Shown here: positions 11,630 to 64,000 of the stretch, piece after piece
Position numbering within the stretch: position 1 is the first letter of the stretch
Layout of the letters: every line of letters begins with the position of its first letter
Source: Halorubrum salsamenti
Lineage (GTDB): Archaea; Halobacteriota; Halobacteria; Halobacteriales; Haloferacaceae
Reading direction: 5' to 3'
Assembly: GCF_007671685.1 (NCBI RefSeq)
Contig: NZ_VCNL01000005.1
Coordinates: 186,001 to 250,000, forward strand
Length of the DNA: 64,000 nt
Notes under the pieces: generated by a model
Databases searched by the model: none
Told to the model about the DNA's origin: nothing
What the model saw: only the letters and a program-made list of their open reading frames with translations
Translations under genes and position numbers: made by a program

Positions 11630-11663
11630 GTTTGCGTCAATAGCCTGTGGAGAGCCCCCGGAT

Positions 11664-11685: not shown

Positions 11686-11789
11686 CGATACACTTCCTTA
11701 GTCATCCCTCTCACCGGGCGCGGTCCGTTCCGGTTGGCTTGTGCATCGAGTCTCGTCAGTACATCACTGTGCGTCGGTACGGCACATTG

Positions 11790-13610: not shown

Positions 13611-13980
13611 ATCGCGGAGCGGTCGCGACACCCGAATCCTGAATGAATATCCCTTATGGATTCGGGACGCGCGAATCGTAGCGTAAGTGCGATCTCGTGT
13701 CGAATGTGTCGAATGTGTCGAGGATTTTGTTTAATTCACGCATTGTTCGAGCGAGGAATAGCCAGATCGCACGGGTACCGACGCAGTCACGTTGGTTTCG
13801 GCAGCCGACCGGAGGGGGCTGCTCGCGTGGCTCGGTAAATTTGATTGTGCAGAGGCGAACTTTATACGTATATGGGCGGTTGACACGCTATCATGAAATT
13901 CAGTTCAACCTCGACGTACTGAGAAAATCCATAAATTCGGCCAACCCGAACTTTATATACTGTGCCGAGAACAAGTAGGT
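13611..13980 (+). promoter_or_regulatory. Regulatory gap with two TATA-type promoters before the IclR gene
   Basis: No convincing gene. Two similar boxes, AACTTTATACGTATAT (about 13858-13873) and AACTTTATATACTG (about 13948-13961), precede the regulator. The second is at the correct distance for a leaderless start at 13981. The first would start a transcript near 13890, where a nine-codon ORF (13893-13922) begins. A short tandem TCGAATGTG repeat lies near 13700. Confidence 0.5.
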
Positions 13981-14748
13981 ATGAACGCGAACGACGGCGG
14001 TCGGCAGGTACAGGCCACGCTGACCTCGCTCGAGATCGTGGAGACGCTCCGCGAGTTGGACGGGGCTCGGGTGACGGAGCTCGCAGACACGCTCGATCTT
14101 TCGCCGAGCACCGTTCACACGCACCTCGCAACCCTCGTCAGCGCCGACTACGTCGTCAAATCTGGGGACATCTACCATTTGAGCCTCCAGTTTCTGGGAC
14201 TGGCCGATTACGTTCGCAATAGACGAAACGCCTACCGGGTCGCCGACTCGTACACCGACCAACTCGCACAGGAGACGGAGTGCCGCGCCGTCTTCGTCGT
14301 CGAGGAGAACGGCCGGGGCGTCTACATGTACACCTACTCCGGGAAATACGCCGTCTGGACTTACTCTACCGTCGGCAAGCGGTTCCACCTTCACCAGACC
14401 GCGGCCGGGAAGGCGATCCTCTCGCGGCTCCCCCGCGAGCGCGTCAACGAAATCGTCGACGAGTGGGGACTCCCGGCAAGCACCGAGAACACCATCACTG
14501 ACCGCGAGGAGTTGCTGGCGGAGTTAGACGCCGTCGCGGAGCGGGGCGTCGCGTTCAACGACGAAGAGCAGTTGGAGGGAGTAAAGGCGGCTGGCGTCCC
14601 CGTCAACGGGACTGATGGGCGTGTCGCCGGTGCGTTCAGCGTCGCCAGTCCCGCGAACCGGATGACCGAGGACCGATTCGAAACGGAGATACCGAAGATT
14701 CTCCTCGGCGTTGCAAACGAGTTCGAACTCGAAAACTCGATGTCCTGA
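13981..14748 (+). CDS. IclR-family transcriptional regulator
   Basis: A 255-residue regulator with an N-terminal winged helix (SLEIVETLRELDGARVTELADTLDL, then SPSTVHTHLATL as recognition helix) and a C-terminal IclR effector domain with FHLHQTAAGKAILSRLP, GVAFNDEEQLEGVKAAGVPV and AFSVASPANRMT. IclR proteins bind small-molecule effectors and control adjacent catabolic genes. This one terminates the catabolic island, so it probably controls the BKACE, SDR and ABC operons. Leaderless promoter TTTATATAC sits about 27 nt upstream. Confidence 0.92.
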   Translation: MNANDGGRQVQATLTSLEIVETLRELDGARVTELADTLDLSPSTVHTHLATLVSADYVVKSGDIYHLSLQFLGLADYVRNRRNAYRVADSYTDQLAQETECRAVFVVEENGRGVYMYTYSGKYAVWTYSTVGKRFHLHQTAAGKAILSRLPRERVNEIVDEWGLPASTENTITDREELLAELDAVAERGVAFNDEEQLEGVKAAGVPVNGTDGRVAGAFSVASPANRMTEDRFETEIPKILLGVANEFELENSMS

Positions 14749-45147: not shown

Positions 45148-45390
45148 ATGAGTGACCCACAGCAACCGAGACTGACCCCGATCGATGAGTGGGAAGATGA
45201 AGCTGAAGCGATGCTAGACGACGTCGAGTATGACACCGATCTCGGAGTACAGATGGCTCGCGACGCGATTCGGGTCTCAAATGGAGAGCTGACTGACGCC
45301 GAGTTCCACGAAAGATACCACGAAGCGGTGCTGGAAGAGTTCGGCGAGGACGAACGCCCGACGAAGCCGGAGGGGTTCGAGGATGACTGA
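45148..45390 (+). CDS. dmsE: Small DmsE-like protein of the reductase operon
   Basis: 80 very acidic residues (PQQPRLTPIDEWEDEAEAML, GVQMARDAIRVSNGELTDAE). It overlaps dmsA by 8 bp. The position between the regulator and dmsA matches the small gene called dmsE in Halobacterium. Annotators sometimes class it as an Fe-S protein N-terminal domain, but no cysteines are present here. Probably an assembly factor for DmsA; function unproven. Confidence 0.6.
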   Translation: MSDPQQPRLTPIDEWEDEAEAMLDDVEYDTDLGVQMARDAIRVSNGELTDAEFHERYHEAVLEEFGEDERPTKPEGFEDD

Positions 45391-47866: not shown

Positions 47867-47868
47867 CG

Positions 47869-48696
47869 ATGACAAACTACGGGCTCGTAATCGACCAGGA
47901 GCGGTGTATCGGATGTCAAGCGTGCGCAGTGTCGTGTAAACAGGAGAACAACGTTCCGATGGGGCAGTTCTGGAACCGCGTGCTCACCGAGGGCGGCGAG
48001 AAGATGGACACCCCGTCGGGCGGCTACCCCGAAGACGGCGGGAGCGGGTCACTGGACATGCAGTACCAGCCGACGGCGTGTCAACACTGCGAGAACGCGC
48101 CGTGTGTGAAGGTCTGTCCGGTCAACGCGACGTACACCCGCGACGACGGCATCGTCGAGATCGACTACGACAAGTGTATCGGCTGTCGCTACTGCATGGC
48201 GGCGTGTCCGTACAACGCTCGAGTATTCAACTGGGACGAACCGGAACACATGCCAGAGGGGGGGACGGGCGACGTAGAGGAGCGGCCACAGGGCGTCGTC
48301 GAGAAGTGTACGTTCTGTAGCCACCGCGTCGACGAGGGCCTCGATCCGGCCTGTGTCGTCAACTGTCCGGCCGACGCCCGTATCTTCGGTGACCTCGACG
48401 ACGAGAGCAGCACCGTCTCAAAGTACATCGACAAGTACGAGACGGACCAGCTGCTCGAAGATCGCGGGACGGACCCGAAGACGCACTACATCAGCGGTGA
48501 GATGAGTCCCGGACGCCCACAGACGTCGGACAAGATGGAGAGCGAACTCGACGATGTCTCGCCGTGGTCTGACGGCGACGACGTGCCGTCTGACGGAGAC
48601 GACAGTGCCGGTGGTGAGTCGAGTGGTGGCCACCATTCGGTCAGCGGCGACGAAGTTCCACGCGTCCCGTCCGTGAAATCAGGAGGTGACGACTGA
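47869..48696 (+). CDS. dmsB: Four-cluster ferredoxin subunit of the reductase
   Basis: 275 residues. Four 4Fe-4S motifs: CIGCQACAVSC, CQHCENAPCVKVC, CIGCRYCMAAC, CTFCSHR..CVVNC. It passes electrons from the membrane subunit to DmsA. A strong SD GGAGGTGA lies just before the ATG. The acidic C-terminal tail of about 70 residues (SDGDDVPSDGDDSAGGESSG) is longer than in bacterial DmsB. Downstream SD GGAGGTGA for the next gene is inside its 3' end; the genes abut. Confidence 0.9.
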   Translation: MTNYGLVIDQERCIGCQACAVSCKQENNVPMGQFWNRVLTEGGEKMDTPSGGYPEDGGSGSLDMQYQPTACQHCENAPCVKVCPVNATYTRDDGIVEIDYDKCIGCRYCMAACPYNARVFNWDEPEHMPEGGTGDVEERPQGVVEKCTFCSHRVDEGLDPACVVNCPADARIFGDLDDESSTVSKYIDKYETDQLLEDRGTDPKTHYISGEMSPGRPQTSDKMESELDDVSPWSDGDDVPSDGDDSAGGESSGGHHSVSGDEVPRVPSVKSGGDD

Positions 48697-50000
48697 TGGC
48701 TGAGAAGACCGAGTCGTCGCGAGTTGCGATCCCGTCCTTCAGCGGAAAGGGCAAGCTTTGGATCGGCCTGCTCGTCGTGCTCATGGCCGCTGGGCTCGCT
48801 GCGTGGGGGTATCAGCTCACGATGGGACTAATTGCCACGGGAATGCGCAACGTCTTCTCGTGGGGACTGTACATTATGATGTTCGTCCTGTTCGTGGGGC
48901 TGTCGGCAGGCGGACTCATCATCAGTAGTGCGCCGAAGTTCTTCCATTCGCACCGCTACGAGGGATTCGCCCGGCTCGGTGTGCTGGTCAGTCTCGCGTG
49001 TATCATCGTCGCGGGACTGCTCATCTTGCCGGACATCGGCCGTCCGGGGCGGATTTACCAGTTTTTCACCTCCCCAGACTTGCGGTCACCGATGGTGTGG
49101 GACTTCGGTGTCGTCCTACTGTACGGACTCCTCAACCTCTGGTACCTGTGGCTCTTGACCCGCCGTGACCTGGCTGCACGCGGGTCGTCCCTGGCGCTCG
49201 GCGTCAAAGACACCGAAGCGGGTCGCGAGCGTGATCGAACGCTTATGTTCTGGACGGCGGCAGTCGCGCTTCCAACTGCGGTCGCACTCCACTCGGTGAC
49301 AGGATGGATATTCGCGACGCAGATCGGCCGTGGTGACTGGTTCAGCCCGCTCGTCGCTCCGGTGTTCATCGCGAAAGCACTCGTCTCCGGGCTCGGCCTG
49401 CTGCTGATCGTGTCGGTTCTCGCGGACAGGTACACGAACTTCGAGGTCGACCGAGAGGAACTCACGAGTCTCGGCAAGATCCTCGGAATCTTCCTCGCGT
49501 TCCACGTGGTGTACCTCTTAGCGGCCGAGCGACTACCACACGCTTGGGCGGATCACTTCGAGTTCTGGGCCATTATGAGTAACTTCCTCATCGGGGACTC
49601 GGTGTACTTCTGGCTGTGGACGGTCGTCGGTGGTGCGGTCCCACTCGCTATGCTGGCACTCCCGTCCCTCCGAAAGCGCGTGTCAGTCATCTTCACGGCG
49701 AGCGTGCTCGCAGTCGTCGGTACGATGTTCGAAGGGATCCGCCTCGTATTCACGGGGTACGAGGTCGCCAACATCGACTCCGCGCCCGGTATCTCGCTCG
49801 GCGGCGAGTACACGGGCATTACGACCAATATCTGGGCGACTGCAGGGGCATACACCCCGACAGTCGTTGAGATTGCTGTCACCCTCGGTATCATCGCCTT
49901 CGGGGCACTCATCGTCACGCTCGGTCTGAAGTACGTGCCGATCCAGCGAGTCGACGCAGAGCCATCCTACGCAGCCGACGGCGGCAAACAAGACCAATGA
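48696..50000 (+). CDS. dmsC: NrfD/PsrC-type membrane anchor subunit
   Basis: 434 residues with about ten hydrophobic helices, the NrfD-like fold (GLYIMMFVLFVGLSAGGLII, PDIGRPGRIYQFF, HSVTGWIFATQI, LRKRVSVIFTASVLAVVG). It anchors the complex and oxidises menaquinol. Larger than E. coli DmsC (287 aa), which agrees with the PsrC-like haloarchaeal version. Preceded by SD GGAGGTGA. Confidence 0.85.
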   Translation: MAEKTESSRVAIPSFSGKGKLWIGLLVVLMAAGLAAWGYQLTMGLIATGMRNVFSWGLYIMMFVLFVGLSAGGLIISSAPKFFHSHRYEGFARLGVLVSLACIIVAGLLILPDIGRPGRIYQFFTSPDLRSPMVWDFGVVLLYGLLNLWYLWLLTRRDLAARGSSLALGVKDTEAGRERDRTLMFWTAAVALPTAVALHSVTGWIFATQIGRGDWFSPLVAPVFIAKALVSGLGLLLIVSVLADRYTNFEVDREELTSLGKILGIFLAFHVVYLLAAERLPHAWADHFEFWAIMSNFLIGDSVYFWLWTVVGGAVPLAMLALPSLRKRVSVIFTASVLAVVGTMFEGIRLVFTGYEVANIDSAPGISLGGEYTGITTNIWATAGAYTPTVVEIAVTLGIIAFGALIVTLGLKYVPIQRVDAEPSYAADGGKQDQ

Positions 50001-50581
50001 CCGAACAAACTGACGCACCGACCGAGCGTGAGCGATCAGCCGAACGAACCGCCGAAAGCGATACGCTCCAGTCGGACGCAGCGGCGATGTACGCAGTCCT
50101 CGCCGAGTGTTGGCGGGAGCCCAGCCACCGGCTCGTCAAGGCCGTCGAAGCCGGTGAGTTAGAACCGGTGTTCGGTGACCTCGACTCGGTAGACCTCAAG
50201 AGCCTTCGAACCGAACACACACGACTGTTCATCGGCCCGGCAGGACCACCATGTCCGCCATACGAGAGTGTCTACCGCGATCGCAACGATCCTGACGAAC
50301 TGGGGCCAGTCAAGGGACCGGCCACAATGGCGGTCACGCGCTGGTATCGAGAGTTCGGCGTCCAGCCTGCTCAGGACCATCCGGACCTTCCGGACCATAT
50401 CGCGACGGAATTAGAGTTTGCCGCGTACCTGTCAGAAGAAGGGCTCGATGAGCGGCTCGACCAGTTCTGTGACGAACACCTCAACGCTTGGACTGGAGAA
50501 TTCTTGGGACTTGTTGAGGACGAGACGTGTGAACAGTTCTATGAATCGCTGGCAGCGACAACCCGAGAGGTGTTAGGATAA
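49997..50581 (+). CDS. dmsD: TorD/DmsD-type maturation chaperone
   Basis: 194 residues, all-helical. Family signature TRLFIGPAGPPCPPYESVYRD (FxGPxxxPxPPYESVY) near residue 75, with an EFAAYLSEE helix. It binds the Tat signal and apo-DmsA before cofactor loading. Overlaps dmsC by 4 bp (ATGA) and ends the operon. Confidence 0.88.
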   Translation: MTEQTDAPTERERSAERTAESDTLQSDAAAMYAVLAECWREPSHRLVKAVEAGELEPVFGDLDSVDLKSLRTEHTRLFIGPAGPPCPPYESVYRDRNDPDELGPVKGPATMAVTRWYREFGVQPAQDHPDLPDHIATELEFAAYLSEEGLDERLDQFCDEHLNAWTGEFLGLVEDETCEQFYESLAATTREVLG

Positions 50582-52200: not shown

Positions 52201-53019
52201 ATGCCAGAGTACGATTTCAGCGGCAAGGTTGCGTTTGTAACCGGTGCCGCACGAGGACAGGGTCGTTCACACGCAAAAATGTACGCCGAACACGGTGCTG
52301 ATGTTGTCATCGTTGATGTCTGTAACAGCATGGAGTCGATCCCGTACAACCTCGGCACACGGGACGAGCTCGATGCGACAGCGGAGACGGTCAGGGACGA
52401 AGGACAAGATGCTCTTGTGGTCGAATGTGATGTCTCGAACGAGGACCATGTGGAACGGGCGGTCGACCAAGCGCTTGATGAGTTCGGACAAATCGATTTC
52501 CTCGCGAATAACGCCGGCATCTTCACCCTAGCCGAGGCGGTCGAAATGTCCGAAGAGGAGTGGGACCAGGTACTCGGAACGAACTTGAAAGGCGCTTGGT
52601 TGTGCGCGAAACACGTCGGTAACCACATGATTGAGCGAGGAGAGGGTGGTAAAATAATCACTACCTCCTCCGGGTACGGGCTCGTTGGTGGTCTTTTGGA
52701 AGGTCACTACACGGCATCCAAACACGGCGTAAATGGATTAACAAAGACGTTGGCACTGGAACTTGCCGAGTACGATATTAACGTCAATGCCATTGCACCA
52801 ACTGGCGTCGATACACCAATGATGGAGGAGTTCGTCGAAGTGTATGGCGATGAGGTTCTCGATGACGTCGTAGAACTCACGGGCCCTTGGAATATCTTCG
52901 GAGGGGGAATGATCGAATCCAAATATATCAGCGAAGCGTATATGTGGCTCTCTAGTGACGCGTCACGTTATGTTACGGGTATAACTCTTCCAGTCGACGC
53001 GGGTCTCAGCGCGAAATAA
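52201..53019 (+). CDS. Mycofactocin-type SDR dehydrogenase
   Basis: 272 residues. SDR motifs: VTGAARGQGRSHAK, NNAGIFT, catalytic TTSSGYG and YTASKHG. The insertion after strand 2 (VDVCNSMESIPYNLGTRDEL) is the feature of the mycofactocin-dependent SDR subfamily (TIGR03971 type), where NAD(H) is bound tightly and mycofactocin takes the electrons. The mft genes nearby support this. The substrate is probably an alcohol; the family includes carveol-like dehydrogenases. Start at 52201 follows the ATG that begins PEYDFSGKVAFV. Confidence 0.8.
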   Translation: MPEYDFSGKVAFVTGAARGQGRSHAKMYAEHGADVVIVDVCNSMESIPYNLGTRDELDATAETVRDEGQDALVVECDVSNEDHVERAVDQALDEFGQIDFLANNAGIFTLAEAVEMSEEEWDQVLGTNLKGAWLCAKHVGNHMIERGEGGKIITTSSGYGLVGGLLEGHYTASKHGVNGLTKTLALELAEYDINVNAIAPTGVDTPMMEEFVEVYGDEVLDDVVELTGPWNIFGGGMIESKYISEAYMWLSSDASRYVTGITLPVDAGLSAK

Positions 53020-53069: not shown

Positions 53070-53837
53070 CTAACGGCGCGCATTGAGTTCGTGGAACTCG
53101 TCTCGGATATACGCCGTATACGCGTCTGCGATATGTTCAAGGAGCACTTCCCCGGCAGCAGCGGTCGCTGGCCTCGCATCACCGAGAACACCGCTTTCAT
53201 CATATGTTTCTACGCCGTCAGCAAATAACGCCGCCGCAGATACCGCTCCGGTGTGTCCTTCGGGGAGTTCGCCTTCCACAAGAGATGGTTCAATAGCGAG
53301 AAGCATCGCAGTCTCGCTGGCACCTGCGTGAACGACGGGTTCGTCGACATCGATTCCTGCGGCCGCTAACCCTTCTTCAAGCAGTTCCATGTATCGTTGG
53401 AGTCTGGTAATGGCGACGAGATCCACGCCTTCCATCCGTGCGAGTTCCGCGTATGCGGCGTCAACTATGGAAAACGAACCTCCGTGTCCAGGGAGTATCA
53501 CAACCCGGGTAAATCCCTGAGTCTCGAAGGATGACACGTAATCACGGAGCACTGCCGTGAGTGTATCCGGAGATATAGAGAGAGTGCCAGGGAATGCGGA
53601 GTGTTCGTCAGAAGGCCCGACTGGCACAGGAGGGGCAACAAAAGCATCATCGAGGTTCCGAGCGACACGTTCCGCAAGTGCCGTCGCGATTCGGGTGTCT
53701 GTCCCGACCGGGAGATGCGGCCCATGTTGTTCGGTTGCGCCGAGCGGAACAATGATGGTATCTACACCTCCTTGAACCGCAGATTCGATCTCTTGCCACG
53801 TCAGATCAGCCAATGTCACGTGGTCAGGGTCACTCAC
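53070..53837 (-). CDS. mftE: MftE, creatininase-family peptidase of mycofactocin maturation
   Basis: About 255 residues of creatininase-like fold: VPLGATEQHGPHLPVGTDTR (metal-binding Glu, His, Asp), VILPGHGGSFSIV (metal His) and HAGASETAML (Glu). MftE cuts the modified MftA C-terminal dipeptide free from the leader. Starts are uncertain: GTG 53837 is used; TTG 53864 has GAGGAG 7 nt upstream, and the frame extends to TTG 53879. The gene is convergent with the SDR gene and lies at the left border of the composite insertion, divergent from mftA if the insertion is removed. Confidence 0.82.
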   Translation of the reverse strand: MSDPDHVTLADLTWQEIESAVQGGVDTIIVPLGATEQHGPHLPVGTDTRIATALAERVARNLDDAFVAPPVPVGPSDEHSAFPGTLSISPDTLTAVLRDYVSSFETQGFTRVVILPGHGGSFSIVDAAYAELARMEGVDLVAITRLQRYMELLEEGLAAAGIDVDEPVVHAGASETAMLLAIEPSLVEGELPEGHTGAVSAAALFADGVETYDESGVLGDARPATAAAGEVLLEHIADAYTAYIRDEFHELNARR

Positions 53838-53905
53838 AGCTGTATCGTTCACCCGATGATACAAGATTGTTCTCCTCAATGAGTTACGCTGCTATCCTCA
53901 TATCC

Positions 53906-53913: not shown

Positions 53914-54960
53914 GGCTCTGTTGAAATCCTCAACAAGTGACACATTCTACCCCGGGTGTGGTCAATACAGGAGACTCACGTAACGACGTAGAACGGTGAC
54001 CTATTTACATCGTATCAAAAACCGCGTGCAAGATACAGAGCATCTATTCAGTAGTCAGATCCATCAAACGATTAACTATTTCTCCTCATCAGACGAACTT
54101 GCAGGTGATGAATCAAACCACCTCTCTCCAGTCTCGACTCGGACTCTCCAATCGGTCATTGGCGGGTCTCGGTCTCGCCGCATCGGGCTTTATTGGTTTT
54201 ATGGGGATCATCACGGCAGAAGTCCTCTATCCGAACTACACGACCCGACAGGATATCAGCGACTTGGGCTCGACACGCCCACCTAACCCAGTGATACACG
54301 AACCCTCGGCGACGATCTTCAATTCCACAATGCTTCTGACAGGACTGATTGTAATCCTCTCGGCATATCTGCTCTACCGCGCGATGAATCGTCGCGGGTT
54401 TCCGATTACATTGGCCATCTTCGGATTGGGAGCCTTCGGTGTCGGGGTCTTTCCGGGAAACATGGCTCCGTGGCATGGACTATTCGCCCTCCTTACGTTC
54501 TTTATGGGCGGTATCACGGTCCTCCTCTCCGCACGGGTCGTTTCCCGACCGTTCTCGTTCCTCTGTGGGGTCTTTGGTGGAGTCTCGCTCCTTATTCTCA
54601 TCAGTGTGTTTTTCTTCGGACTGGTCGTCGGTGGTCCGCATCCGCTCGAATTCCTCGGGGCCGGCGGAATCGAGCGCTGGGTCGTCTATCCACTCATCCT
54701 CTGGCTGCTCGCTTTCGGTGGCTATCTATTGGCGGAATCGGATGCGACGAGGAGCCTTACGAAATAGGTAACAGGTAACGATACCCACGGGGTTCGAGCG
54801 AGGAGTTCACAACCAGTGGTGACCGATACGCGCGTTGTATCTCGCACGGCTGGCGGGACGTTTCTCTGAAATGGCAGAACCGTTGGTGTTCAATACGCAC
54901 TCTTCAGCAACCAGCTGTTTCATACAATAATATGTCCGAAGAAGAGGATTCAACAGAGCC
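53914..54960 (-). mobile_element. Cassette-like element E4 (1,047 bp)
   Basis: Right end inverted at 53914-53971; left end read from 54960 backwards (GGCTCTGTTGAATCC, TCTTCTTCGGACATAT, ATGAAACAGCTGGTTGCTGA). Cargo is a DUF998 membrane protein gene. It forms the left arm of the composite, its left end pointing inward. Confidence 0.7.
54108..54767 (+). CDS. DUF998-family membrane protein (cargo of E4)
   Basis: 219 residues from ATG 54108 (GTG 54105 and TTG 54099 also in frame). About six helices with the DUF998 pattern: AASGFIGFMGIITAEVLYPNYT, RQDISDLGSTRPPNPV, TIFNSTMLLTGLIVILSAYL, PWHGLFALLTFFMGGI. Members are integral membrane proteins of unknown function. It is the largest cargo among the cassettes here. 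GC is lower than the core genes. Confidence 0.72.
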   Translation: MNQTTSLQSRLGLSNRSLAGLGLAASGFIGFMGIITAEVLYPNYTTRQDISDLGSTRPPNPVIHEPSATIFNSTMLLTGLIVILSAYLLYRAMNRRGFPITLAIFGLGAFGVGVFPGNMAPWHGLFALLTFFMGGITVLLSARVVSRPFSFLCGVFGGVSLLILISVFFFGLVVGGPHPLEFLGAGGIERWVVYPLILWLLAFGGYLLAESDATRSLTK

Positions 54961-55071
54961 CTATCGTATAGTAACGAACCGTACTCTCGGTCGTCGACCC
55001 CGCCCTACTCCTCGCCGGCGCCGTTCTCCAACATCATGTCTGTACCGGGGGTCGCCCACGTCAAGCAGCGG

Positions 55072-55356
55072 TCAACCGTACCGTTTGTGCGCGTCGTCGA
55101 TATCCATGATATCGATCACACGGACTTCACTGTCGTCCTCAACGATGAACGCCGTGTGGGTCCGGCCAATGTGTAGCCGATAGATCTCCTCGCCGTCAAC
55201 TGTGAGCTTCTCCCGGTCACCGGAGCCTGCGCCCGGTCGAGGGTACGGGTCCTCAGCCAACTTTCGGAGATTGTCCTTGACGATTCGCGTACTCTTCTCG
55301 TCGAGCAGCGAGACGTACTCGCGCGCGTCGGCAGCGAGCAGAACGTTATAGCTCAT
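55072..55356 (-). CDS. RelE/ParE-family toxin
   Basis: 94 residues (ATG at 55356; another ATG one codon earlier). MSYNVLLAADAREYVSLLDE, KDNLRKLAEDPYPRPGAGSG, LTVDGEEIYRLHIGRTHTAF, VRVIDIMDIDDAHKRYG: the RelE fold with Arg residues in place for mRNA cleavage. Overlaps the antitoxin gene upstream. It probably stabilises the replicon-like composite. Confidence 0.8.
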   Translation of the reverse strand: MSYNVLLAADAREYVSLLDEKSTRIVKDNLRKLAEDPYPRPGAGSGDREKLTVDGEEIYRLHIGRTHTAFIVEDDSEVRVIDIMDIDDAHKRYG

Positions 55357-55543
55357 CAAGCGGCGTCAGCTCCTCCGTGTCCGCCTCGCGGACTTCGCGG
55401 ACTTTGTCGGCGAGCTGGCGCCGGTGGTGTTCTTGGATCAGCTCTTCGAGCAGATCGTCGTACGTCTTTCCTGCGCTCTTTAGTTCGTTCAGTTCTTTCC
55501 ATCGTTCCTCTGTAACGGGAATTCGTTTGTTTGCGTTCGACAT
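55346..55543 (-). CDS. Antitoxin partner of the RelE toxin (RHH-like)
   Basis: 65 residues from the ATG at 55543. RIPVTEERWKELNELKSAGK and TYDDLLEELIQEHHRRQLAD resemble the ribbon-helix-helix/DUF7557 antitoxins of haloarchaea, followed by an acidic toxin-binding tail DTEELTPLDEL. Stop and toxin start overlap. Confidence 0.75.
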   Translation of the reverse strand: MSNANKRIPVTEERWKELNELKSAGKTYDDLLEELIQEHHRRQLADKVREVREADTEELTPLDEL

Positions 55544-55717
55544 GGCGGGTGTTTTTTTTTTCACGTAGAATCACCCCCGGCTTCCCCGAGATTCATCCCA
55601 TTATTTGGTCTCCTCGTTTATCCAGGGGGAGTGACGCGCCTTGATTCAGATCGCCCGTGCCACTTGACGATCCTTTTCAGCTACGTGTGCAATCCTTACA
55701 ACCATTACAACTTAAGC

Positions 55718-56263
55718 TTAATCCCCGCTGTCGTCGCCGGCGCCGGCGTGATCGCCGTCACGCCCGGAGCGCATGTTGTGTCGCTTATACGCCTGCAACT
55801 GTTCCAGAAAGGACCGACGCGTGTCGAGGATCGGGTCAGCAACCCCCGGTGTCTCGGGCTCAGGCACGGGTACGTCCACCTCCGCAACGACGGCGCGGTG
55901 ATCGATGCGGTCGACCACGCTCTCGACGCGGTCGCGACGCTCGCGAATCTCACACTCCTCGCGAACGCGTTGCTCCTGCGCGGCGAGCTGTTCGAGACCG
56001 TCGATCGCGCCATCGACGTGCGGGCCCATCTCGTCGTCGTACCGATCGAGTCCCTCGTGCAGCTCGTCGACGGTCGTCTCCCGGCCCTGTTCGCGCTCGG
56101 CGGCGGCGATCGACTTGAGCCGGTCGGCGACGCCCGGTATGTCTGAGCCCTCGCTCACGATATCCGAGAATCGCACGTCAGACAGTGTATCACGCGAGTT
56201 ATCTATCGATATCTTTCCGTCGACGGCGACACCGGTAAATTCGGGCAGTGACAACTTTCGCAC
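55718..56263 (-). CDS. Hypothetical acidic coiled-coil protein near orc1
   Basis: 181 residues, strongly acidic. RKLSLPEFTGVAVDGKISID at the start and a helical, coiled-coil-like middle (VDGAIDGLEQLAAQEQRVRE and ECEIRERRDRVESVVDR). C-terminus Gly/Asp-rich. No known domain. Position beside an Orc1/origin and toxin-antitoxin pair suggests a plasmid maintenance or partition role; this is inference. Confidence 0.55.
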   Translation of the reverse strand: MRKLSLPEFTGVAVDGKISIDNSRDTLSDVRFSDIVSEGSDIPGVADRLKSIAAAEREQGRETTVDELHEGLDRYDDEMGPHVDGAIDGLEQLAAQEQRVREECEIRERRDRVESVVDRIDHRAVVAEVDVPVPEPETPGVADPILDTRRSFLEQLQAYKRHNMRSGRDGDHAGAGDDSGD

Positions 56264-56725
56264 GATTCTACGTATTAGTTCATTATGTGATACGAATGTC
56301 CAAAGCGCTTATCACATTAGAACAAAATCTGCGTGTGCGGCAACGCAGGGTTGTCGCTTAGCCGGCACACCCCCTTACTGCCAACATTCTGTAGCGATGG
56401 CGTCGTCGACGAGCTGATCGGACGACGTGGAGCCGGTGCTGTCTCGATCGCCTTCTCGATCAGGAGAGACCACACGTCAGCGACGAGAAAAGCGCCGCCG
56501 ACGTGCAGAGGGGGTGGGAGCGTGAGGGGTTGTGCCGCGAGCGACCCGTGGGCCGCGTGTTCTCCTACTGCCCTCGGGTAGTTAACCTCCAGCCTGACCC
56601 GTGGTGGAAGTGGACCAGACGACGATCTCGCGGTTCGCCGGATACCCCGCGGTGCCGCTGTAAGTCACCAACCAGATCGCTGTCTCAGTAGTTACAGACC
56701 GGCGTCTCCGAGAAATGTCGGCGTC
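56264..56725. other. Gap without a recognised gene
   Basis: No gene recognised in about 460 bp. Short frames are Arg-rich in both directions. The segment probably holds the terminator of orc1 and decayed sequence. Confidence 0.3.
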
Positions 56726-57952
56726 CTACGACAGCGTGCTCTGCCGACTGAATGTATCCACGTCTTGCACGATCCCGTCAAAGTCCTCGACGTGCTCGAA
56801 CCCTTCCAGTAGCGAATCGAGGTTCACGCGTAGTTCTGAGAGGTAGTAATCCCCACCCTGTACGCCGCCTTTCCGCTTGTGAGTCATTGCCAGATTGTAT
56901 GTGTCGAGGTTCGTAAGCTTGTCACGAATACTTCGCGATGTGAGTTGATTCGTCCCAATCGTGTCAGCGACGCGTTTGTACTCCGAATAGACCTCTTTCG
57001 TCCGCGCGGGCGTGTCTCCGCGAGATTCGAGTATCGCCAGCGCCATCAAGAGCGCCTGATCGTTGATCGTCAGATCCTTGAGCTTGTTGACGATGTTTAC
57101 CTCTTCCAGTTCGTCTCGGGCATCGTCGAGGTGCGCCTCGGTAACGATATCGCTTCCCTCAACGCAGGCGATATCTCCGGCTTCATGGAGGAGGCGAATC
57201 GCCTGTCTCGCAGAGCCGGTGTCCTTTGCCGTCCACGCGGCCGCCAGCCCGACCACGCCGTCATCGACTGCATCGGGTTTGAACGCGGTGTCGACACGGT
57301 CGTACAGAATAGACCGCAGATCGTCGGCGTCGTATGGATCGAAGTGAACCTCGTTCTCATAGAGGCTGTCCTTCGTTTTTGCGGATAGATCCTGTTTGAA
57401 CTGGAGGTCGTTCGAAATGCCGATGATCGAGAGGTGTGCGTTCGTGATTTTTCCGTTCGATCGCGCCCGTGGGAGCTGGTACAACAGGTCGTCGTCAGAT
57501 CCGAGGTTGTCGATTTCGTCGAGGAAGAACACGATGTACCCACCAATTTCGTCGAGCCGTCGGAACATTCGCTCATTGAGATCGGTGAGCGAGAGTCCCT
57601 TTGGTCGCTCTGTCGTTTCGGGCTCGATCTCGGTGAGGATCTTCCCGACGGACTGATAGGCAGTGTTCACGTCTTTCAACGACACCTCGAACGTCCGAAG
57701 GTCGATATCTTTCTCTTGGCAGTAGTTGTGAAGTTCCTCTAACACGACACGAGCAGTGACGGTCTTTCCCTGCCCGGTCTTCCCGGAGATGAGGACGTTC
57801 TTCGGCTCGATCCCGGAGCGGATCGTCGTCCGAAAACTCTTCGCGATCTCTTCTAATTCGGGCTCGCGCTCCGGGAGACGATCAGGAACCCACTCTTCCA
57901 TCAACGCGCGCTCGTTCTCGAAGACGTTAGTGTCGGTTTCAAACAGCGACAT
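56726..57952 (-). CDS. Orc1/Cdc6-type replication initiator
   Basis: 408 residues. AAA+ ATPase: Walker A VLISGKTGQGKTVTAR near residue 55, Walker B YIVFFLDEIDNLGSDDDL, sensor 1 SIIGISNDL, sensor 2 GSARQAIRLLHEAG, then a winged helix (RVADTIGTNQLTSRSIRDKL and YNLAMTHKRKGGVQGG). Initiates replication from the adjacent origin. Start at the ATG at 57952 just before the origin repeats. The ORB repeats beside it are unlike a generic ORB, matching the usual one-origin-one-initiator arrangement of haloarchaea. Confidence 0.92.
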   Translation of the reverse strand: MSLFETDTNVFENERALMEEWVPDRLPEREPELEEIAKSFRTTIRSGIEPKNVLISGKTGQGKTVTARVVLEELHNYCQEKDIDLRTFEVSLKDVNTAYQSVGKILTEIEPETTERPKGLSLTDLNERMFRRLDEIGGYIVFFLDEIDNLGSDDDLLYQLPRARSNGKITNAHLSIIGISNDLQFKQDLSAKTKDSLYENEVHFDPYDADDLRSILYDRVDTAFKPDAVDDGVVGLAAAWTAKDTGSARQAIRLLHEAGDIACVEGSDIVTEAHLDDARDELEEVNIVNKLKDLTINDQALLMALAILESRGDTPARTKEVYSEYKRVADTIGTNQLTSRSIRDKLTNLDTYNLAMTHKRKGGVQGGDYYLSELRVNLDSLLEGFEHVEDFDGIVQDVDTFSRQSTLS

Positions 57953-57996
57953 GGGGCTCTACCTTGCGAGTATCATACACACATTCATTTATAAAA

Positions 57997-58405
57997 CCCC
58001 CACCTTCCGCATTTTCCCGAACTTCCTCATAAGCCGGGTTTTATATACCACACCCACACCCCGTTTCCGCATAATTCCCGTCAGTAGGCGTGGGGGTACC
58101 AGAGCGCCTGTCTCGGCACCGAACCACGCCCTCCCCGATAATCTCGCTTCGCTCTTGTCGCGTTGTTATATATCTTTTGTTTAATGTGTTGTTGTTGTTG
58201 TGTTGTAGGCTGGAGACACCAACAAACAGCACTATTAGACAATTCGATACTGGCGTGTGAACACCGTTTAAGTACGCTACTCGTGGAGTGGCGCTATTGA
58301 GGCCCTCCAAATCACCGGGTGAATAATGCGGAAACGAGGGGTGTGTCTCCGGTTGTGTGCCGTCGTGGAATGTGGTGTCTTCGATTATGCGGAAATGGGG
58401 GGTCT
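57997..58405 (+). other. Replication origin with four ORB-like repeats
   Basis: Four copies of a motif with core TTCCGCATWAT preceded by a C-tract: R1 57997-58018 and R2 58056-58079 in the + direction, R3 58321-58343 and R4 58381-58405 in inverted orientation. Between them lies an AT-rich stretch (58160-58207, TTATATATCTTTTGTTTAAT then GTT repeats), a probable unwinding element. The block lies directly upstream of the Orc1/Cdc6 gene, as in haloarchaeal origins. Confidence 0.75.
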
Positions 58406-58526
58406 GTTGGATACTGACGAGAGGTGCGCTGGTTGCCACAATACGCCTTTTTAGACGCTGACTGCCGACGATCGCGTATGCGAGTACAACCCCCTATCAC
58501 GTCTCACGTTGCGGGCGGTGAGACCG

Positions 58527-59219
58527 ATGGGCGTTGACCACCCGACCAGTGCGACCACGACGACCGCCGCCGAAGACCCACTCCGGCACGTCGTCGTTCG
58601 CGAGGCTGCCGGCGAGCGCGACGCGTTCTACCTCGCGCACCTCTGGTCGCGCTGGTTCGGCACCGAGTACAAACACGGGCACCGATACGCATCGGGAAAG
58701 CTTCCATACCCGCTCTTTCCAGTCGCCGGGTGGAGCACTGAGACCATCGAGATGGAGAACCTCGCCGTCCACGGCGTCGTCGCCGGACACGACCCGCCCG
58801 ATCGCGACGGCGCCGTGCAGATCGGCGGCGGGTTCGCGTCGATCATGAGCCACGAGCACACTGTCGATGAGCCGCCCGACGGCGGGTTCGACGCTGCCGC
58901 GCTCGCGGGCGAGCGCAACGCGTGGCTCTGGTTCGGCGTCGTCGACGAGTCGTGGCGCGGGCTCGGACTCGGCCGCCGGTTGTTCGAGCGCCGGCTCCAG
59001 TGGGCTCGCGATCAGGGCGCCGACATGGCGTTCGCGTTCGGCTGGGAACACGAGGGCCGGACGAGTCGCCCGCTGTTTGAGGCCTTCGGGTTCATCCCCG
59101 TGGAGCGCTTCGAGCGACTGTACGAAGGCGATCGCAACGTGTGTCCGGAGTGCGGGGCGCTGCCCTCGAACGACCGGACGTGTACGTGTGCCGGCGTCGT
59201 GTGGGCGACGGACCTGTAG
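58527..59219 (+). CDS. GNAT-family N-acetyltransferase with a C-terminal zinc ribbon
   Basis: 230 residues from ATG 58527. GNAT core with acetyl-CoA loop VVDESWRGLGLGRRLFERRL and FEAFGFIPVERFERLYEG. The final 30 residues contain CPECG and CTC, likely a small zinc ribbon. Substrate unknown; a role in modification of a toxin or replication protein is conceivable. It lies between the origin and cassette E3 and ends 4 bp before it. Confidence 0.75.
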   Translation: MGVDHPTSATTTTAAEDPLRHVVVREAAGERDAFYLAHLWSRWFGTEYKHGHRYASGKLPYPLFPVAGWSTETIEMENLAVHGVVAGHDPPDRDGAVQIGGGFASIMSHEHTVDEPPDGGFDAAALAGERNAWLWFGVVDESWRGLGLGRRLFERRLQWARDQGADMAFAFGWEHEGRTSRPLFEAFGFIPVERFERLYEGDRNVCPECGALPSNDRTCTCAGVVWATDL

Positions 59220-59223
59220 CTAC

Positions 59224-59945
59224 GACTCTGCTGAAACCCATTCTTCAGACACACTACCGTCTGAAACAGCCGGTCGCTGAAGAGTGCGGATATATCGACA
59301 GGAGGATGTCAGAGGCACAGTCGTCTATCCTCCTAAATAACACACAGTTGTTGAATGTGATAAGACCTCGGAGCCGGTTCTTACAGGCGATAATTGCACT
59401 GTAATGCTGGAATCGGCAGAATGTATCAGCTGATTATTATTTCAACAAAGCCTTTGAGTTGTCTTCATCAGGTGCTTGAATTGTACGTTTCCGGAATTGA
59501 TTCGAGGAGTGCTTCGACGAGGTCATCATCGCCGTACCGGACTGTCTCTGAACGGGGGTCATAATCAACCACACCAATCATGCCGAGTTGGGGAAAGTGG
59601 TTGTGGTGGAGGGCTACTGCAAGTTTGTCATACTCGTCTGCGATCGAGTCCTGCTTCTGGAGATGACTCACCACATCACTAATCGACACGCGATCCGTCT
59701 CAGCTTCTCGCAGGAAGTGAATGATACACCGACGCTCGTACTTGTCTAACAGTGCGAATCGTTGGTCGATCTCTTCAGAAGTATATTCTCGCATTGTCTT
59801 ATTTCCCACCCGACTCTTGAATCTGTTAGTATAAAGTATTGTTCTGGTTGACAGGTTGGCCAGTTCTCTATAGCGCTGAGTAAATGCCCTGTATTGACCG
59901 CAACCGGATCAGAATGTGTCACCTGATGAGGATTTCAACAGAGCC
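59224..59945 (+). mobile_element. Cassette-like element E3 (722 bp)
   Basis: Left end 59224-59284 (GACTCTGCTGAAACCC, TTCTTCAGACACACTACC, CTGAAACAGCCGGTCGCTGA), right end 59888-59945 (CCTGTATTGACCGCAACC to GGATTTCAACAGAGCC). Cargo is a DUF7344-type gene. It forms the right arm of the composite, and its right end meets the AATGGCCC duplication in front of mftA. Confidence 0.72.
59468..59794 (-). CDS. DUF7344-type winged-helix protein (cargo of E3)
   Basis: 108 residues from the ATG at 59794. REYTSEEIDQRFALLDKYER, RCIIHFLREAETDRVSISDV, ALHHNHFPQLGMIGVVDYDP, the pattern of haloarchaeal DUF7344 regulators. A CTTTATACT box at 59829-59837 gives a short leader to 59794. It is divergent from the mftABC operon but separated from it by the element end. 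Could control host or cassette genes. Confidence 0.7.
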   Translation of the reverse strand: MREYTSEEIDQRFALLDKYERRCIIHFLREAETDRVSISDVVSHLQKQDSIADEYDKLAVALHHNHFPQLGMIGVVDYDPRSETVRYGDDDLVEALLESIPETYNSST

Positions 59946-59953: not shown

Positions 59954-60024
59954 AAAAGTGATTTCCCCGTAAAAGGGAGGGGTATCCAAACGTATTTAGT
60001 AATCTATTGTGTGGTTGATACTGT

Positions 60025-60144
60025 ATGTCACAGTCAGCGGATTCAAGCAACGATACTGAACAGTCCACAACTGACGAGCCCGATATCGAGGAAGATCTCT
60101 TCAAGGAAGAGCTCCGAATTGATGGAATATGTGGCGTCTACTAG
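60025..60144 (+). CDS. mftA: MftA, mycofactocin precursor peptide
   Basis: 39 residues, too small for usual ORF lists. The leader (SQSADSSNDTEQSTTDEPDI and EEDLFKEELR) is acidic and the C-terminus is IDGICGVY-stop, which matches the mycofactocin core (IDGMCGVY in mycobacteria): MftC decarboxylates the final Tyr and cyclises it with Val, MftE cuts after Gly. A TATTTAGTAA box lies about 27 nt upstream of the ATG, so the message is leaderless. The first gene of mftABCF; mftB starts 1 bp after the TAG. Confidence 0.88.
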   Translation: MSQSADSSNDTEQSTTDEPDIEEDLFKEELRIDGICGVY

Positions 60145-60145
60145 C

Positions 60146-60388
60146 ATGACCACGAAACTGGCGAGGCCCGATCACATCAAATTCAGGCGGGAGGCGGAAG
60201 GAGGACTCGTGTACGATCACGAAAACTACGGCTACGAGGACGCGTCCATGTACGAAGTGAGCGACACCGTTATTGATATCTTAGAGTACGTCGACGGAGA
60301 ACAACCTCGACAGGCTCTCGAAGAGAAGTTTTCGCCGGCCATCGTCGAAACACTATTACAGCGCGGAGTCATCACAAATGTCGAGTGA
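60146..60388 (+). CDS. mftB: MftB, mycofactocin chaperone (RRE protein)
   Basis: 80 residues. The ATG at 60146 follows the mftA stop by one base. LARPDHIKFRREAEGGLVYD, GYEDASMYEVSDTVIDILEY and PRQALEEKFSPAIVETLLQR fit the MftB/PqqD-like RiPP-recognition fold, which presents MftA to MftC. Overlaps mftC by 11 bp. The longer in-frame version from 60011 runs through mftA and is excluded. Confidence 0.82.
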   Translation: MTTKLARPDHIKFRREAEGGLVYDHENYGYEDASMYEVSDTVIDILEYVDGEQPRQALEEKFSPAIVETLLQRGVITNVE

Positions 60389-61337
60389 ACCGCTTTCGGC
60401 ACCGGTCACGATCACGTGGGAGGTGACGCTGGGTTGTAACCTCCACTGTGACCACTGCCTGTCAGGAAGCGGCCCGGGCCACCAGATGCCGAACGAGCTC
60501 ACGACAGATGAGGCTCGTGAATTCATCACGGAACTCGATCAGATGGACGTGTTCCAAGTGAACATCGGTGGTGGCGAACCCTTCATCCGTCCCGATATGC
60601 TGGAGCTGCTCGAGGAACTCACCAGTCGCGACATTTCGACGTGCGTGAGTACAAACGGAACTCAGCTCGATGAGGCGACGCTCGACCGTATCGAGGCGAT
60701 GGACCCACTATTCCTTCAAGTGAGTATGGATGGTCTCCAAGCTGAAAACGACGCCATTCGTGGTGACGGCGTGTATGACCAAGTCGTCGATGCCCTCAAA
60801 CGGTTAGAGGACCGCGACATCGGCACGACAGTAAACACGGTCGTCACGCGACAGAACGTCGAAGATCTGTCCAAGATATATGACCTCGCAGAATCGCACG
60901 GCGCCGGCCTCCGGCTAAATCGGTTTCGCCCGAGTGGCCGCGGCGAGGACACGTGGGACAAGTTCCGCCTCACGGAAGATCAGATACGGTTCCTCCACGA
61001 CTGGATCGACGATCACCCCGACGTCCGAACCGGCGATTCCTTCTTTTATTTAAATGCGCTTGGTGAGGTTAGAAATAACACGCTCAAACAATGCGGTGCC
61101 GGATCAATGACGTGTCTCGTTGACCCCGCCGGTGATGTGTTCCCCTGTGCGTTCACACAGTGGGATCACCTTGCCTCTGGGAATGTAACGGACGACGGGT
61201 TCCAGACGGCGTGGGACGAAATCGCGAATCTCCGTAGTCGAATCGACGACCACGAGGGGTGTCCCGCGGTCGCGATGGGTAGCTCCGACCCCGACGGCGA
61301 AGACCCTCAGCTACGGGCCATTCTCTCGGGCGACTGA
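60378..61337 (+). CDS. mftC: MftC, radical SAM maturase
   Basis: 319 residues. The radical SAM motif is GCNLHCDHC (CxxxCxxC) near residue 15; TNIGGGEP-like VNIGGGEPFIRPDMLELLEE follows. The C-terminal SPASM domain has C residues in QCGAGSMTC, VFPCAFTQW and EGCPA. In mycobacteria MftC catalyses oxidative decarboxylation of the C-terminal Tyr of MftA and crosslinks it to the penultimate Val. Slightly shorter than bacterial MftC (about 390 aa). Confidence 0.9.
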   Translation: MSSEPLSAPVTITWEVTLGCNLHCDHCLSGSGPGHQMPNELTTDEAREFITELDQMDVFQVNIGGGEPFIRPDMLELLEELTSRDISTCVSTNGTQLDEATLDRIEAMDPLFLQVSMDGLQAENDAIRGDGVYDQVVDALKRLEDRDIGTTVNTVVTRQNVEDLSKIYDLAESHGAGLRLNRFRPSGRGEDTWDKFRLTEDQIRFLHDWIDDHPDVRTGDSFFYLNALGEVRNNTLKQCGAGSMTCLVDPAGDVFPCAFTQWDHLASGNVTDDGFQTAWDEIANLRSRIDDHEGCPAVAMGSSDPDGEDPQLRAILSGD

Positions 61338-61343: not shown

Positions 61344-63716
61344 ATGCCGGGAGATGGGTCGAAGCGGGGTCACGGGGAGTATCGCCTTCGAAGCGGAGTC
61401 ACGGTTACTGGCACTATCCTCGTCTCCACGCAGCCGCTTCTTGCGACGCGACTCAATGAGACCGCTATCGGGACTATCGACGCACTCGAGAGTGAAACGT
61501 TTCGATCGCCGGTGGCGGTCGCCTCGGAACTCGGACGTGACGCCGAGCCGGTTGTACAATTGTTCGAACGGCTCCACCGACGCGGATTTCTCGAGTGGCG
61601 GCCCGCGCGAGATTGCCAATTTAGACCGCCTGTATCGATCGTCGTGACGGTCCGAAACGACCGTAGCTCCCTTAAAAAGTGTCTCGACGCACTAGCCGAA
61701 CTTGAGTATCCGATGTACGAGGTAGTGGTGGTTGACGACGGGTCAACAGACGGGACCAACAAGATGGCCAGAAACTACGGCATGGTCGGAACCAGTCGCG
61801 TTCACGTGCTGTCGGTCGGTAGTGCCACCGATCCGCTGGGCATCGGTACCTCGCGAAACCGTGGTGTCGCCGCAGCTACTCACGATGTCGTCGCGTTCAC
61901 TGACGCGGACTGTCGCCCGCGGACGGACTGGCTTACCGACCTCGTCCCGATCCTCAGAACTGCCGACCTCGTCGGGGGTCGGATCCGCCCCGCAGGTGAG
62001 ACAGCAGCGAGCGTATACGAGGGGATCAACTCTTCACTGGATATGGGCGCATACGCGTCACGAGTGGATCCCGGTGGGAACGTCCCGTATCTAGCAACGG
62101 CGAACTTGATCGGCCACCGCTCTGCGTTCGAATCCGTCCCGTTTCCCAATCGGAGTATCGCCGAAGATGTGGACGTGTGCCGGCGCGCTATCGCGGCTGG
62201 ACTCGAGGTCGTGTACTCGCCAACTGGGGTCGTCGAACATGTATATCGAGATGGGAAACGCGACTTCTCCAGCCGTCGCGCGGCGTACGGTTCGTCGGAG
62301 GCGCTGCTCGCGCGCGACTACGGTCGTAATGCCTCCGGCAGCGTCGGTATGCCAACGCTCCTCCCCTTCGCCGTCATAGTCGGGTTGCTTGCGACCTTTG
62401 GTTCGGCCGCAGTCTCCGCTGTCACGGTCGGAGTGATGGCGATATCACTCGGTCTCCTAGGAAGTTTCCGTGGGTGGCATCTCTGGCAGCGGTACAGACA
62501 GCTAAACCCGATTATTGCGGCGTCTGACGTGCTACGGAGCTGGGGTCGTGAGCGACTTTCGTCGGCGTATGCCGTATCGCGAGAGATCATGCGGTACTAC
62601 TCGGGACCGGCACTCTTTCTCGGTGTTCTAGTATGGGGAGCGGGGATACAGACAGTGGGAAGCGGCATCATCGGTGTGACGATCACCGCGATAGCGCTCC
62701 CGCTGGCCGTCGAATATAACGTCCATGATCCAGACACGTCGCTACTTGGCTACGGAACGTACTACGCCGCAGACCACTTCGGATATCAGTATGGGGCCTA
62801 TCGCGGAGCATTCGTCTACCACACGTTCAGCCACCTAAATCCGCTGACGCGGTTTCGACTCACAGGAGCCGGAGCAAAGCTCTTCGCACGACGACGTATC
62901 GGCCGTGAGACATCACCCACAGAGACGCTCACCGTTGGGAGCGTAACAGGTCGATTCAACGTCGATTCATCGGCAGAAGAGTGGTGGTTCAAGGATGACC
63001 AGCTCAGGGGCGAACGTCCGGTCGTCGCCGATCTGCTCGACCGAATCAAATCCGACGACACGTTCCTCGATGTCGGCGCAAATATCGGGATCTACAGTTG
63101 TCTGGTCGGCCGTAAACTCGACAAGGGGACCGTCATCGCTGTCGAGCCTCATCCGGAGAACGCGGCGCGGCTCGCGGAGAACCTGTCGATGAACGATATC
63201 GATTCACCGGTGGTTCGAAAGGCGCTCGGAGCCGAAAACGGACGTGGGGTGCTGACAAGCCCGGACGATACGGTGGCTGGGAGCGGGACACACACCCTCC
63301 TCACAGAACAGGACGCGCCGACCGACTCAGTGTCGTCCTCAACCGATCAGTCGCTGTCGACGCCGGTCGTGACGGGAGATTCGTTGGTGGCATCAGGTGA
63401 GAGACCACAGCCGACGGTGGTCAAGATCGATGTCGAAGGCACAGAAGTTGATGTGCTCGACGGAATGGACGAGGTCTTATCAGACCCATCGTGTCGACTT
63501 GTGTACTGTGAACTTCATCCGGAATCACTCTCAAAACGCGGCGTGGCCACAGAACGAGCAACGACTGTCCTCCACAAGAAGGGATTCTCCGTGACACGTG
63601 TTCAGGACCTCCCGGACGAACGGACCATCGTTCGAGCCGAAAAGGACACAGTGAGAGCGGAGAAAACCACGTCGAACGCGGTTGGAAACGTTGATTCGGA
63701 TAATGTCGAGCAGTGA
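61344..63716 (+). CDS. mftF: MftF-type glycosyltransferase fused to an FkbM-type methyltransferase
   Basis: 790 residues, about 320 more than usual MftF. Residues 1-90 are an MftB-contact-like N-terminal part. Residues 100-330 form a GT2 domain (SIVVTVRNDRSSLKKCLDAL, VVVDDGSTDGT, AFTDADCRPRTDWL, SPTGVVEHVYRDGKRD). Two or more helices follow (LPFAVIVGLLATFGSAAVSA, MRYYSGPALFLGVLVWGAGI). The C-terminal 240 residues are an FkbM methyltransferase: FLDVGANIGIYSCLVGRKLD (SAM loop), VIAVEPHPENAARLAENLSM, VVKIDVEGTEVDVLDGM, LVYCELHPESLSKRG. Oligoglucosylation plus O-methylation by one protein is inferred. 6 bp after mftC. Confidence 0.82.
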   Translation: MPGDGSKRGHGEYRLRSGVTVTGTILVSTQPLLATRLNETAIGTIDALESETFRSPVAVASELGRDAEPVVQLFERLHRRGFLEWRPARDCQFRPPVSIVVTVRNDRSSLKKCLDALAELEYPMYEVVVVDDGSTDGTNKMARNYGMVGTSRVHVLSVGSATDPLGIGTSRNRGVAAATHDVVAFTDADCRPRTDWLTDLVPILRTADLVGGRIRPAGETAASVYEGINSSLDMGAYASRVDPGGNVPYLATANLIGHRSAFESVPFPNRSIAEDVDVCRRAIAAGLEVVYSPTGVVEHVYRDGKRDFSSRRAAYGSSEALLARDYGRNASGSVGMPTLLPFAVIVGLLATFGSAAVSAVTVGVMAISLGLLGSFRGWHLWQRYRQLNPIIAASDVLRSWGRERLSSAYAVSREIMRYYSGPALFLGVLVWGAGIQTVGSGIIGVTITAIALPLAVEYNVHDPDTSLLGYGTYYAADHFGYQYGAYRGAFVYHTFSHLNPLTRFRLTGAGAKLFARRRIGRETSPTETLTVGSVTGRFNVDSSAEEWWFKDDQLRGERPVVADLLDRIKSDDTFLDVGANIGIYSCLVGRKLDKGTVIAVEPHPENAARLAENLSMNDIDSPVVRKALGAENGRGVLTSPDDTVAGSGTHTLLTEQDAPTDSVSSSTDQSLSTPVVTGDSLVASGERPQPTVVKIDVEGTEVDVLDGMDEVLSDPSCRLVYCELHPESLSKRGVATERATTVLHKKGFSVTRVQDLPDERTIVRAEKDTVRAEKTTSNAVGNVDSDNVEQ

Positions 63717-63764: not shown

Positions 63765-63980
63765 TCACAGTAACTGGTGTTCCTCGAGGTACGTGACGAC
63801 ACGCTCTGCGGCTTCCTCGGGCGATGTATCGATCTGCTCTCCGGCGCTCGATCCCTCGTCGCTGCCCCGTCCGAGCATTCGGTAGATGCGCTCCTCGACC
63901 GTCCCGGTTCGTGGCGGCCGACCACGACCCCAGCGTTCGTTGGGTGTCACATCTTCGATTGTCACAGGACCGACACTCAT
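63765..63980 (-). CDS. Hypothetical small acidic protein
   Basis: 71 residues from ATG 63980: SVGPVTIEDVTPNERWGRGR, TVEERIYRMLGRGSDEGSSA, SPEEAAERVVTYLEEHQLL. Composition is haloarchaeal; no domain recognised. Convergent with mftF, so probably not part of that operon. It may be the mftD/other neighbour's small partner; unknown. Confidence 0.5.
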   Translation of the reverse strand: MSVGPVTIEDVTPNERWGRGRPPRTGTVEERIYRMLGRGSDEGSSAGEQIDTSPEEAAERVVTYLEEHQLL

Positions 63981-64000
63981 CGAAAATCGTGACTCACGTG

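Follow-up and report, generated by a model that had tools for sequence, protein, structure and literature searches.

The data indicate that the open reading frame (ORF) at 60025-60144 of the window (the whole 64,000-nucleotide stretch of Halorubrum salsamenti DNA analysed here) is, judged by its sequence, a real mftA gene encoding an ordinary mycofactocin precursor. Precursors of this kind are already annotated in haloarchaea. The cluster around mftA very probably belongs to the type, also found in a number of Streptomyces plasmids, that is without MftD and MftG and carries OYE and ETF/FixC/FixX genes, here with an MftC lacking the AuxII ligands. More tentatively, we suggest that haloarchaeal mycofactocin combines an AuxII-free, twitch-type MftC with a cluster-locked OYE pair and ETF/FixCX in place of MftD and MftG, an outline that would be common to some Streptomyces. 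The variant cluster may point to a different finishing and recycling of the cofactor.

Identity and conservation of mftA

The features considered were as follows.

52201-53019 (+), mycofactocin-coupled SDR dehydrogenase; TIGR03971, 324 bits (cut-off 300)
53070-53879 (-), mftE-like peptidase; TIGR03964, 158.9 bits (below the cut-off of 172)
53914-59945 (no strand), 6.0 kb element inserted between mftE and mftA and bounded by 79-nt terminal inverted repeats, outside the pathway
59988-60024 (+), promoter-like stretch of mftA (aaacgtatttagta); position shared by most of the 14 upstream regions in the alignment
60025-60144 (+), mftA, mycofactocin precursor, 39 aa, core ...RIDGICGVY; TIGR03969, 35.9 bits (cut-off 25)
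60146-60388 (+), mftB2, peptide chaperone; NF043018, 132.8 bits (cut-off 62)
60378-61337 (+), mftC, radical SAM maturase; TIGR03962, 306 bits (cut-off 265), profile 8-286 of 339
61344-63716 (+), MftF-like glycosyltransferase (TIGR03965, the best model, 241 bits, below the cut-off of 280) fused to an FkbM-type methyltransferase domain (TIGR01444, 99 bits, cut-off 37.7)
63765-64000 (-), EtfB, 3' part; the gene runs past the window end
C17:266423-268312, OYE-B, outside the window

The ORF runs from ATG to TAG in exactly 39 codons on the forward strand, and its translation is MSQSADSSNDTEQSTTDEPDIEEDLFKEELRIDGICGVY. In addition to the match to the mycofactocin precursor family TIGR03969, it scored 27.1 bits against the Pfam MftA model PF23709 (cut-off 27), and its C-terminal Val-Tyr is preceded by the motif IDGxCG, in the form IDGICGVY. 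The variant-type MftA model (NF040489) was rejected at 24.8 bits, below its cut-off of 30. A genome-wide search returned this ORF as the single MftA match in the whole Halorubrum salsamenti genome, and the same search gave no MftA match in 14 control genomes. The maturase MftC adjoins MftA, as does the MftB chaperone, which was recognised through the MftB2 model. The original prediction of a RiPP precursor, here of the mycofactocin type, was borne out.

The ATG of mftB lies at 60146, one base past the mftA stop and in a different frame. An ORF that starts at a GTG and shares the frame of mftB (60011-60388) covers mftA, so an automatic caller could indeed merge the two, as had been foreseen. 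The claim that the gene was overlooked did not hold. PGAP calls mftA at the equivalent site in two related plasmids, those of Halolamina sp. CBA1230 and H. turkmenica, curated models exist, and the archaeal system has been in the literature since 2011, when Haft described a mycofactocin cluster in Haloterrigena turkmenica (PMC3023750).

MftC was over the cut-off in 11 of 392 genomes of the order, and MftA was over the cut-off in exactly the same 11; weak MftA matches of 19 and 20 bits, below the cut-off, occurred in 2 further genomes. As labelled, the 11 mycofactocin genomes span 7 genera and 4 families. Across the wider phylum, 35 of 383 genomes matched MftC at E 1e-55. Only 5 were over the cut-off, all of them members of the same order, and the remaining 30 (189-217 bits, below the cut-off) were not counted as MftC.

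The C-terminus IDGICGVY showed no variation in 15 distinct haloarchaeal loci: the window, Halolamina sp. CBA1230, H. turkmenica, Halolamina pelagica, Halobellus captivus, rarus, inordinatus and sp. Atlit-31R, Haloarculaceae H-GB1-1, MAG QH_2_65_14, Halorubrum sp. 48-1-W, and the loci of genomes G352, G039, G012 and G056. The acidic leader and the conserved C-terminus noted from the window alone were confirmed. Selection was estimated from 14 of these loci, with G012 omitted as a close relative of G039. In these copies, pN/pS was 0.156 over the last 22 mftA codons, and pN was 0 and pS 0.65 over the last 8. The bacterial core is ...IDGMCGVY (Thermomicrobium, Mycolicibacterium chubuense) and all haloarchaeal copies have ...IDGICGVY, so the predicted one-residue change from Met to Ile was seen in the comparison of MftA C-termini. 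The peptide had been proposed to be doubtful if relatives keep mftBC without it; it was present in every relative that keeps mftBC.

In favour of a random frame or a decayed gene, the ORF is short and is overlapped by a longer one that reads in frame with mftB. Its family score over the cut-off, the purifying selection on its codons, its presence in 15/15 loci and a genome set identical to that of MftC among 392 all speak against such an origin. The probability of this explanation is negligible, and it was discarded on the grounds of family score, selection and co-occurrence with MftC.

A TATA-like element lies within aaacgtatttagta, approximately 25-35 bases 5' of the mftA ATG. In the alignment of upstream regions, the G056 row is not valid, because its assumed start is too far upstream. 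From the spacing of the TATA-like element, a leaderless mftA transcript is plausible. A G-rich box (gggaggggtatcc-like) at window positions 59975-59987, 5' of this element, is also found in several relatives and may be a regulator site.

Other genes of the cluster and the 6.0 kb insertion

The FkbM domain and the glycosyltransferase formed a single reading frame in 6/15 loci (the window, H. turkmenica, G352, Halobellus captivus, H. rarus and Halorubrum 48-1-W). The FkbM domain was not accepted as an MftM homologue, as BLASTP against M. chubuense MftM showed no similarity. No MftF was present between mftC and EtfB in one locus (L037). MftE (TIGR03964) was over the cut-off in 1/11 mycofactocin genomes. 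The mftE-like gene lies approximately 6 kb upstream of mftA in the window and adjoins mftA in Halorubrum sp. 48-1-W.

The TIGR03971 SDRs were found in 11/11 mycofactocin genomes, in which they are multiple and clustered among the up to six matches listed per genome. A single TIGR03971 SDR over the cut-off also occurred in 15 of 381 MftC-negative genomes. This indicates that, in this order, TIGR03971 does not by itself mark a mycofactocin producer. Upstream of the SDR and mftE, the window encodes a molybdopterin oxidoreductase with a ferredoxin-type subunit, an NrfD-type membrane subunit and a small protein (45383-50581).

The terminal inverted repeats of the 6.0 kb element are 78% complementary over 79 nt, and the element is absent from Halorubrum sp. 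48-1-W. Among its cargo are genes for an Orc1/Cdc6 protein (56726-57952, -), DUF998, a GNAT acetyltransferase and DUF7344, and a possible toxin-antitoxin pair without a Pfam match (55072-55564, -). No transposase was recognised among the checked ORFs of the element. A 36-nt repeat, 83% identical between 59417-59452 and 59910-59945, brackets the DUF7344 gene and matches the terminal repeat of the element.

MftC without AuxII cysteines

The MftC alignment comprised 15 haloarchaeal sequences and 9 bacterial ones, taken from all 10 bacterial plasmid records except that of Streptomyces lavendulae CP077967. The AuxI/AuxII assignment of the MftC cysteines follows anSME-type structures. The description of AhbD agrees with this assignment (PMC10452713). 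Three radical-SAM and four AuxI-type cysteines (C239, C246, C257 and C295 here) were aligned in 24/24 MftC sequences. The AuxII cysteines (three of CX2CX5C and the later DPEC) were present in 9/9 bacterial and 0/15 haloarchaeal sequences. The haloarchaeal proteins therefore do not have the complete ligand set of a SPASM domain, with AuxI in 15/15 and AuxII in 0/15. Their AuxII stretch is deleted or replaced and the C-terminal tail is missing; there is no space for the lost tail downstream, because mftF begins six bases past the mftC stop. An AlphaFold model of MftC from 11 sequences had a mean pLDDT of 68, with mostly low confidence in the C-terminal cluster region, and is thus uninformative on AuxI. 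At MftC residue 89 (window 60642-60644), Cys was found in 15/15 haloarchaeal and Lys in 9/9 bacterial sequences.

According to PMC10452713, which cites earlier work, bacterial MftC needs AuxII to form its final product. Given this, the four AuxII cysteines missing in 15/15 haloarchaeal MftC and the absence of MftD raise the question of whether the product is mature mycofactocin at all: an AuxII-less MftC might only decarboxylate or cross-link differently and yield another Val-Tyr-derived compound. We consider this rather unlikely, since the IDGICGVY core, MftB2, MftC and the mycofactocin-coupled SDRs are all retained and mftA is without any sign of decay. Haloarchaeal MftC is a natural experiment, in which exactly the four AuxII ligands have been lost and the rest of the cluster set has been kept.

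MftD, MftG and the OYE/ETF/FixC/FixX module

The MftD premycofactocin synthase (TIGR03966) was over the cut-off in 0/11 mycofactocin genomes. The MftG GMC dehydrogenase, searched with the first of its two models (TIGR03970; the second is TIGR04542), was likewise over the cut-off in 0/11, its best piece reaching 248 bits against a cut-off of 387 in two genomes.

Beyond the window (contig C17 of its genome, G000, up to 256057), EtfB is followed by an SDR, a ferredoxin-type FixX, FixC, EtfA and OYE-A. Past OYE-A lie a chelatase-like AAA/VWA pair and then TIGR03971 dehydrogenases. This cobaltochelatase/Mg-chelatase-like AAA + VWA pair (11212-14384 of locus L002, G000:C17; also in loci L008 and L009) is conserved between the OYE and SDR genes in several haloarchaeal mycofactocin clusters. 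The ETF/FixC/OYE gene order is also found in Halolamina and H. turkmenica, and a FixC gene is present in 14/15 loci, the contig of L037 stopping before the region. EtfA, EtfB and OYE of the window genome score below the curated cut-offs. NCBIfam models are named for mycofactocin-associated ETF and OYE, so the curators are aware of the association. A search of the open-licence literature returned nothing on mycofactocin with haloarchaea or with 'electron transfer flavoprotein', and nothing with 'old yellow' except coumarin degradation.

With the OYE of the window genome as query, 43 of 392 genomes matched at E 1e-70. The first type (hOYE-A) occurred as one copy per mycofactocin genome (11/392), with 1094-1463 bits and 74-100% identity to the window genome's own copy. 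The second (hOYE-B) was found in the same 11/392 genomes with 425-469 bits, and the best OYE match in the other 381 genomes reached 348 bits. Both were located on the mftC-bearing contig. One stop within the match was listed for 4 of the 22 hOYE copies; the OYE-B of the window genome and the OYE-A of G039 are uninterrupted frames, in which the listed stop is the terminal stop. When generic haloarchaeal OYEs were included in an unrooted tree, hOYE-A and hOYE-B grouped as sisters (100/99), and so did the two Streptomyces types (100/99). This indicates a two-OYE set in both domains without one-to-one orthology.

MftC was found in 12 plasmid records. Four of them carry MftD (Tsukamurella, M. chubuense, Streptomyces NBC_00080 and Thermomicrobium), six carry the Streptomyces OYE2, and two are haloarchaeal (Halolamina sp. 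CBA1230 and H. turkmenica) with their own OYE + ETF. The distribution is thus 4 with MftD, 8 with OYE/ETF and 0 with both, a count that covers plasmids only and includes 7 Streptomyces records that are not independent. Two Sphingopyxis plasmid records had an MftD-like protein and no MftC. Five annotated Streptomyces plasmids carry genes labelled 'mycofactocin system FadH/OYE 1 and 2' and 'mycofactocin-associated ETF', and neither mftD nor mftG was listed in the stretch of approximately 37 kb; mftD and mftG are both present in S. sp. NBC_00080 and Tsukamurella. The five plasmids share the gene order mftA-mftB-mftC-OYE1-OYE2-etfA-fixC-fixX-etfB, after which mftF and mftE come in 4/5. In the other one, NBC_00564, mftE follows etfB and a glycosyltransferase lies upstream. 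OYE1 is labelled merely 'FAD-dependent oxidoreductase' in NBC_00557 and SAT1; the NBC_00557 protein passes the cut-off of the OYE1 model. The OYE2 of SAT1 is unannotated and was detected by tblastn in two pieces.

From this co-occurrence and mutual exclusion, we tentatively infer that an OYE replaces MftD and that OYE/ETF/FixCX replaces MftG. Trimethylamine dehydrogenase hands electrons to ETF. It belongs, together with histamine dehydrogenase, to the OYE relatives that oxidise C-N bonds, and an oxidation of AHDP by an OYE is therefore chemically possible. The proposal for MftD is weakened because ene-reductases are closer to these OYEs in sequence (2,4-dienoyl-CoA reductase, 245 bits; bile-acid BaiCD, 320 bits) than the amine dehydrogenases (histamine dehydrogenase, 161 bits; trimethylamine dehydrogenase, 152 bits).

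The ene-reductase relationship also fits a module that acts on the substrate side, through ene-reduction and acyl-type oxidation with the SDRs, with an unrecognised oxidase doing the work of MftD. The SDRs, multiple and clustered among the matches listed, are in keeping with such a role. A generic alpha-hydroxy-acid oxidase encoded elsewhere in 4/11 genomes (best piece 138-154 bits, MftD cut-off 471) might serve as the stand-in for MftD. However, the other 7/11 genomes, including that of the window, have only oxidase fragments of approximately 18-29 bits. A substrate-side role also does not readily account for the locking of both OYEs to the cluster in 11/11 genomes, or for the mutual exclusion of OYE/ETF and MftD in 12/12 plasmid records. 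We regard it as a real possibility, short of probable.

Proposed pathway

In bacteria, MftC decarboxylates and cyclises Val-Tyr, MftE releases AHDP, MftD deaminates AHDP to the redox-active keto-lactam, and MftG couples cofactor re-oxidation to respiration (PMC7491314, PMC11778925). Deletion of mftD in a mycobacterium leads to accumulation of AHDP and loss of mycofactocin (PMC7491314, PMC11778925). By analogy, in haloarchaea MftB2 would present the MftA peptide, and MftC would decarboxylate the C-terminal Tyr39 and join it to Val38. The MftE-like peptidase would free the cyclised Val-Tyr core (AHDP). MftF would glycosylate the core, and the fused FkbM domain may methylate the sugar. In the replacement of MftD and MftG that we propose, one OYE would carry out the deamination of AHDP, and the OYE/ETF/FixCX chain would re-oxidise the reduced cofactor and pass the electrons to quinone. 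Nearby TIGR03971 SDR dehydrogenases would be the enzymes that use the cofactor.

PMC11778925 does not settle which system takes the place of MftG in some 25% of genomes with MftC. The OYE/ETF/FixCX module is a concrete candidate for this replacement and may replace MftD too.

Comparison with known systems

Haloarchaeal MftC resembles twitch-type radical SAM enzymes such as BtrN and MoaA in its predicted single auxiliary cluster, but differs from them in that its sequence places it in the MftC family (306 bits, cut-off 265).

Like the canonical mftABCDEF(G) clusters of mycobacteria and other Actinomycetota, the haloarchaeal clusters encode an MftA ending in ...IDG[MI]CGVY, MftB, MftC, TIGR03971 dehydrogenases, and MftE-like and MftF-like proteins. 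In contrast to them, MftD and MftG were not over the cut-off in any of the 11 genomes, MftC is without the AuxII cysteines, the chaperone is of the MftB2 family, MftF is fused to FkbM in 6/15 loci, and the cluster carries two OYEs with ETF/FixC/FixX.

The Streptomyces OYE/ETF plasmids share with the haloarchaea the OYE, EtfA, FixC, FixX and EtfB genes in equal order and a stretch without mftD and mftG. They differ in an MftC that keeps AuxII, in module genes placed directly after mftC, and in OYE1 and OYE2, which are no one-to-one orthologues of the haloarchaeal pair.

The plasmid pHTUR01 of H. turkmenica has the same gene order (mftE-mftA-mftB2-mftC-mftF), the OYE/ETF module and an MftC 85% identical to that of the window; mftE adjoins mftA there, whereas a 6 kb element lies between them here.
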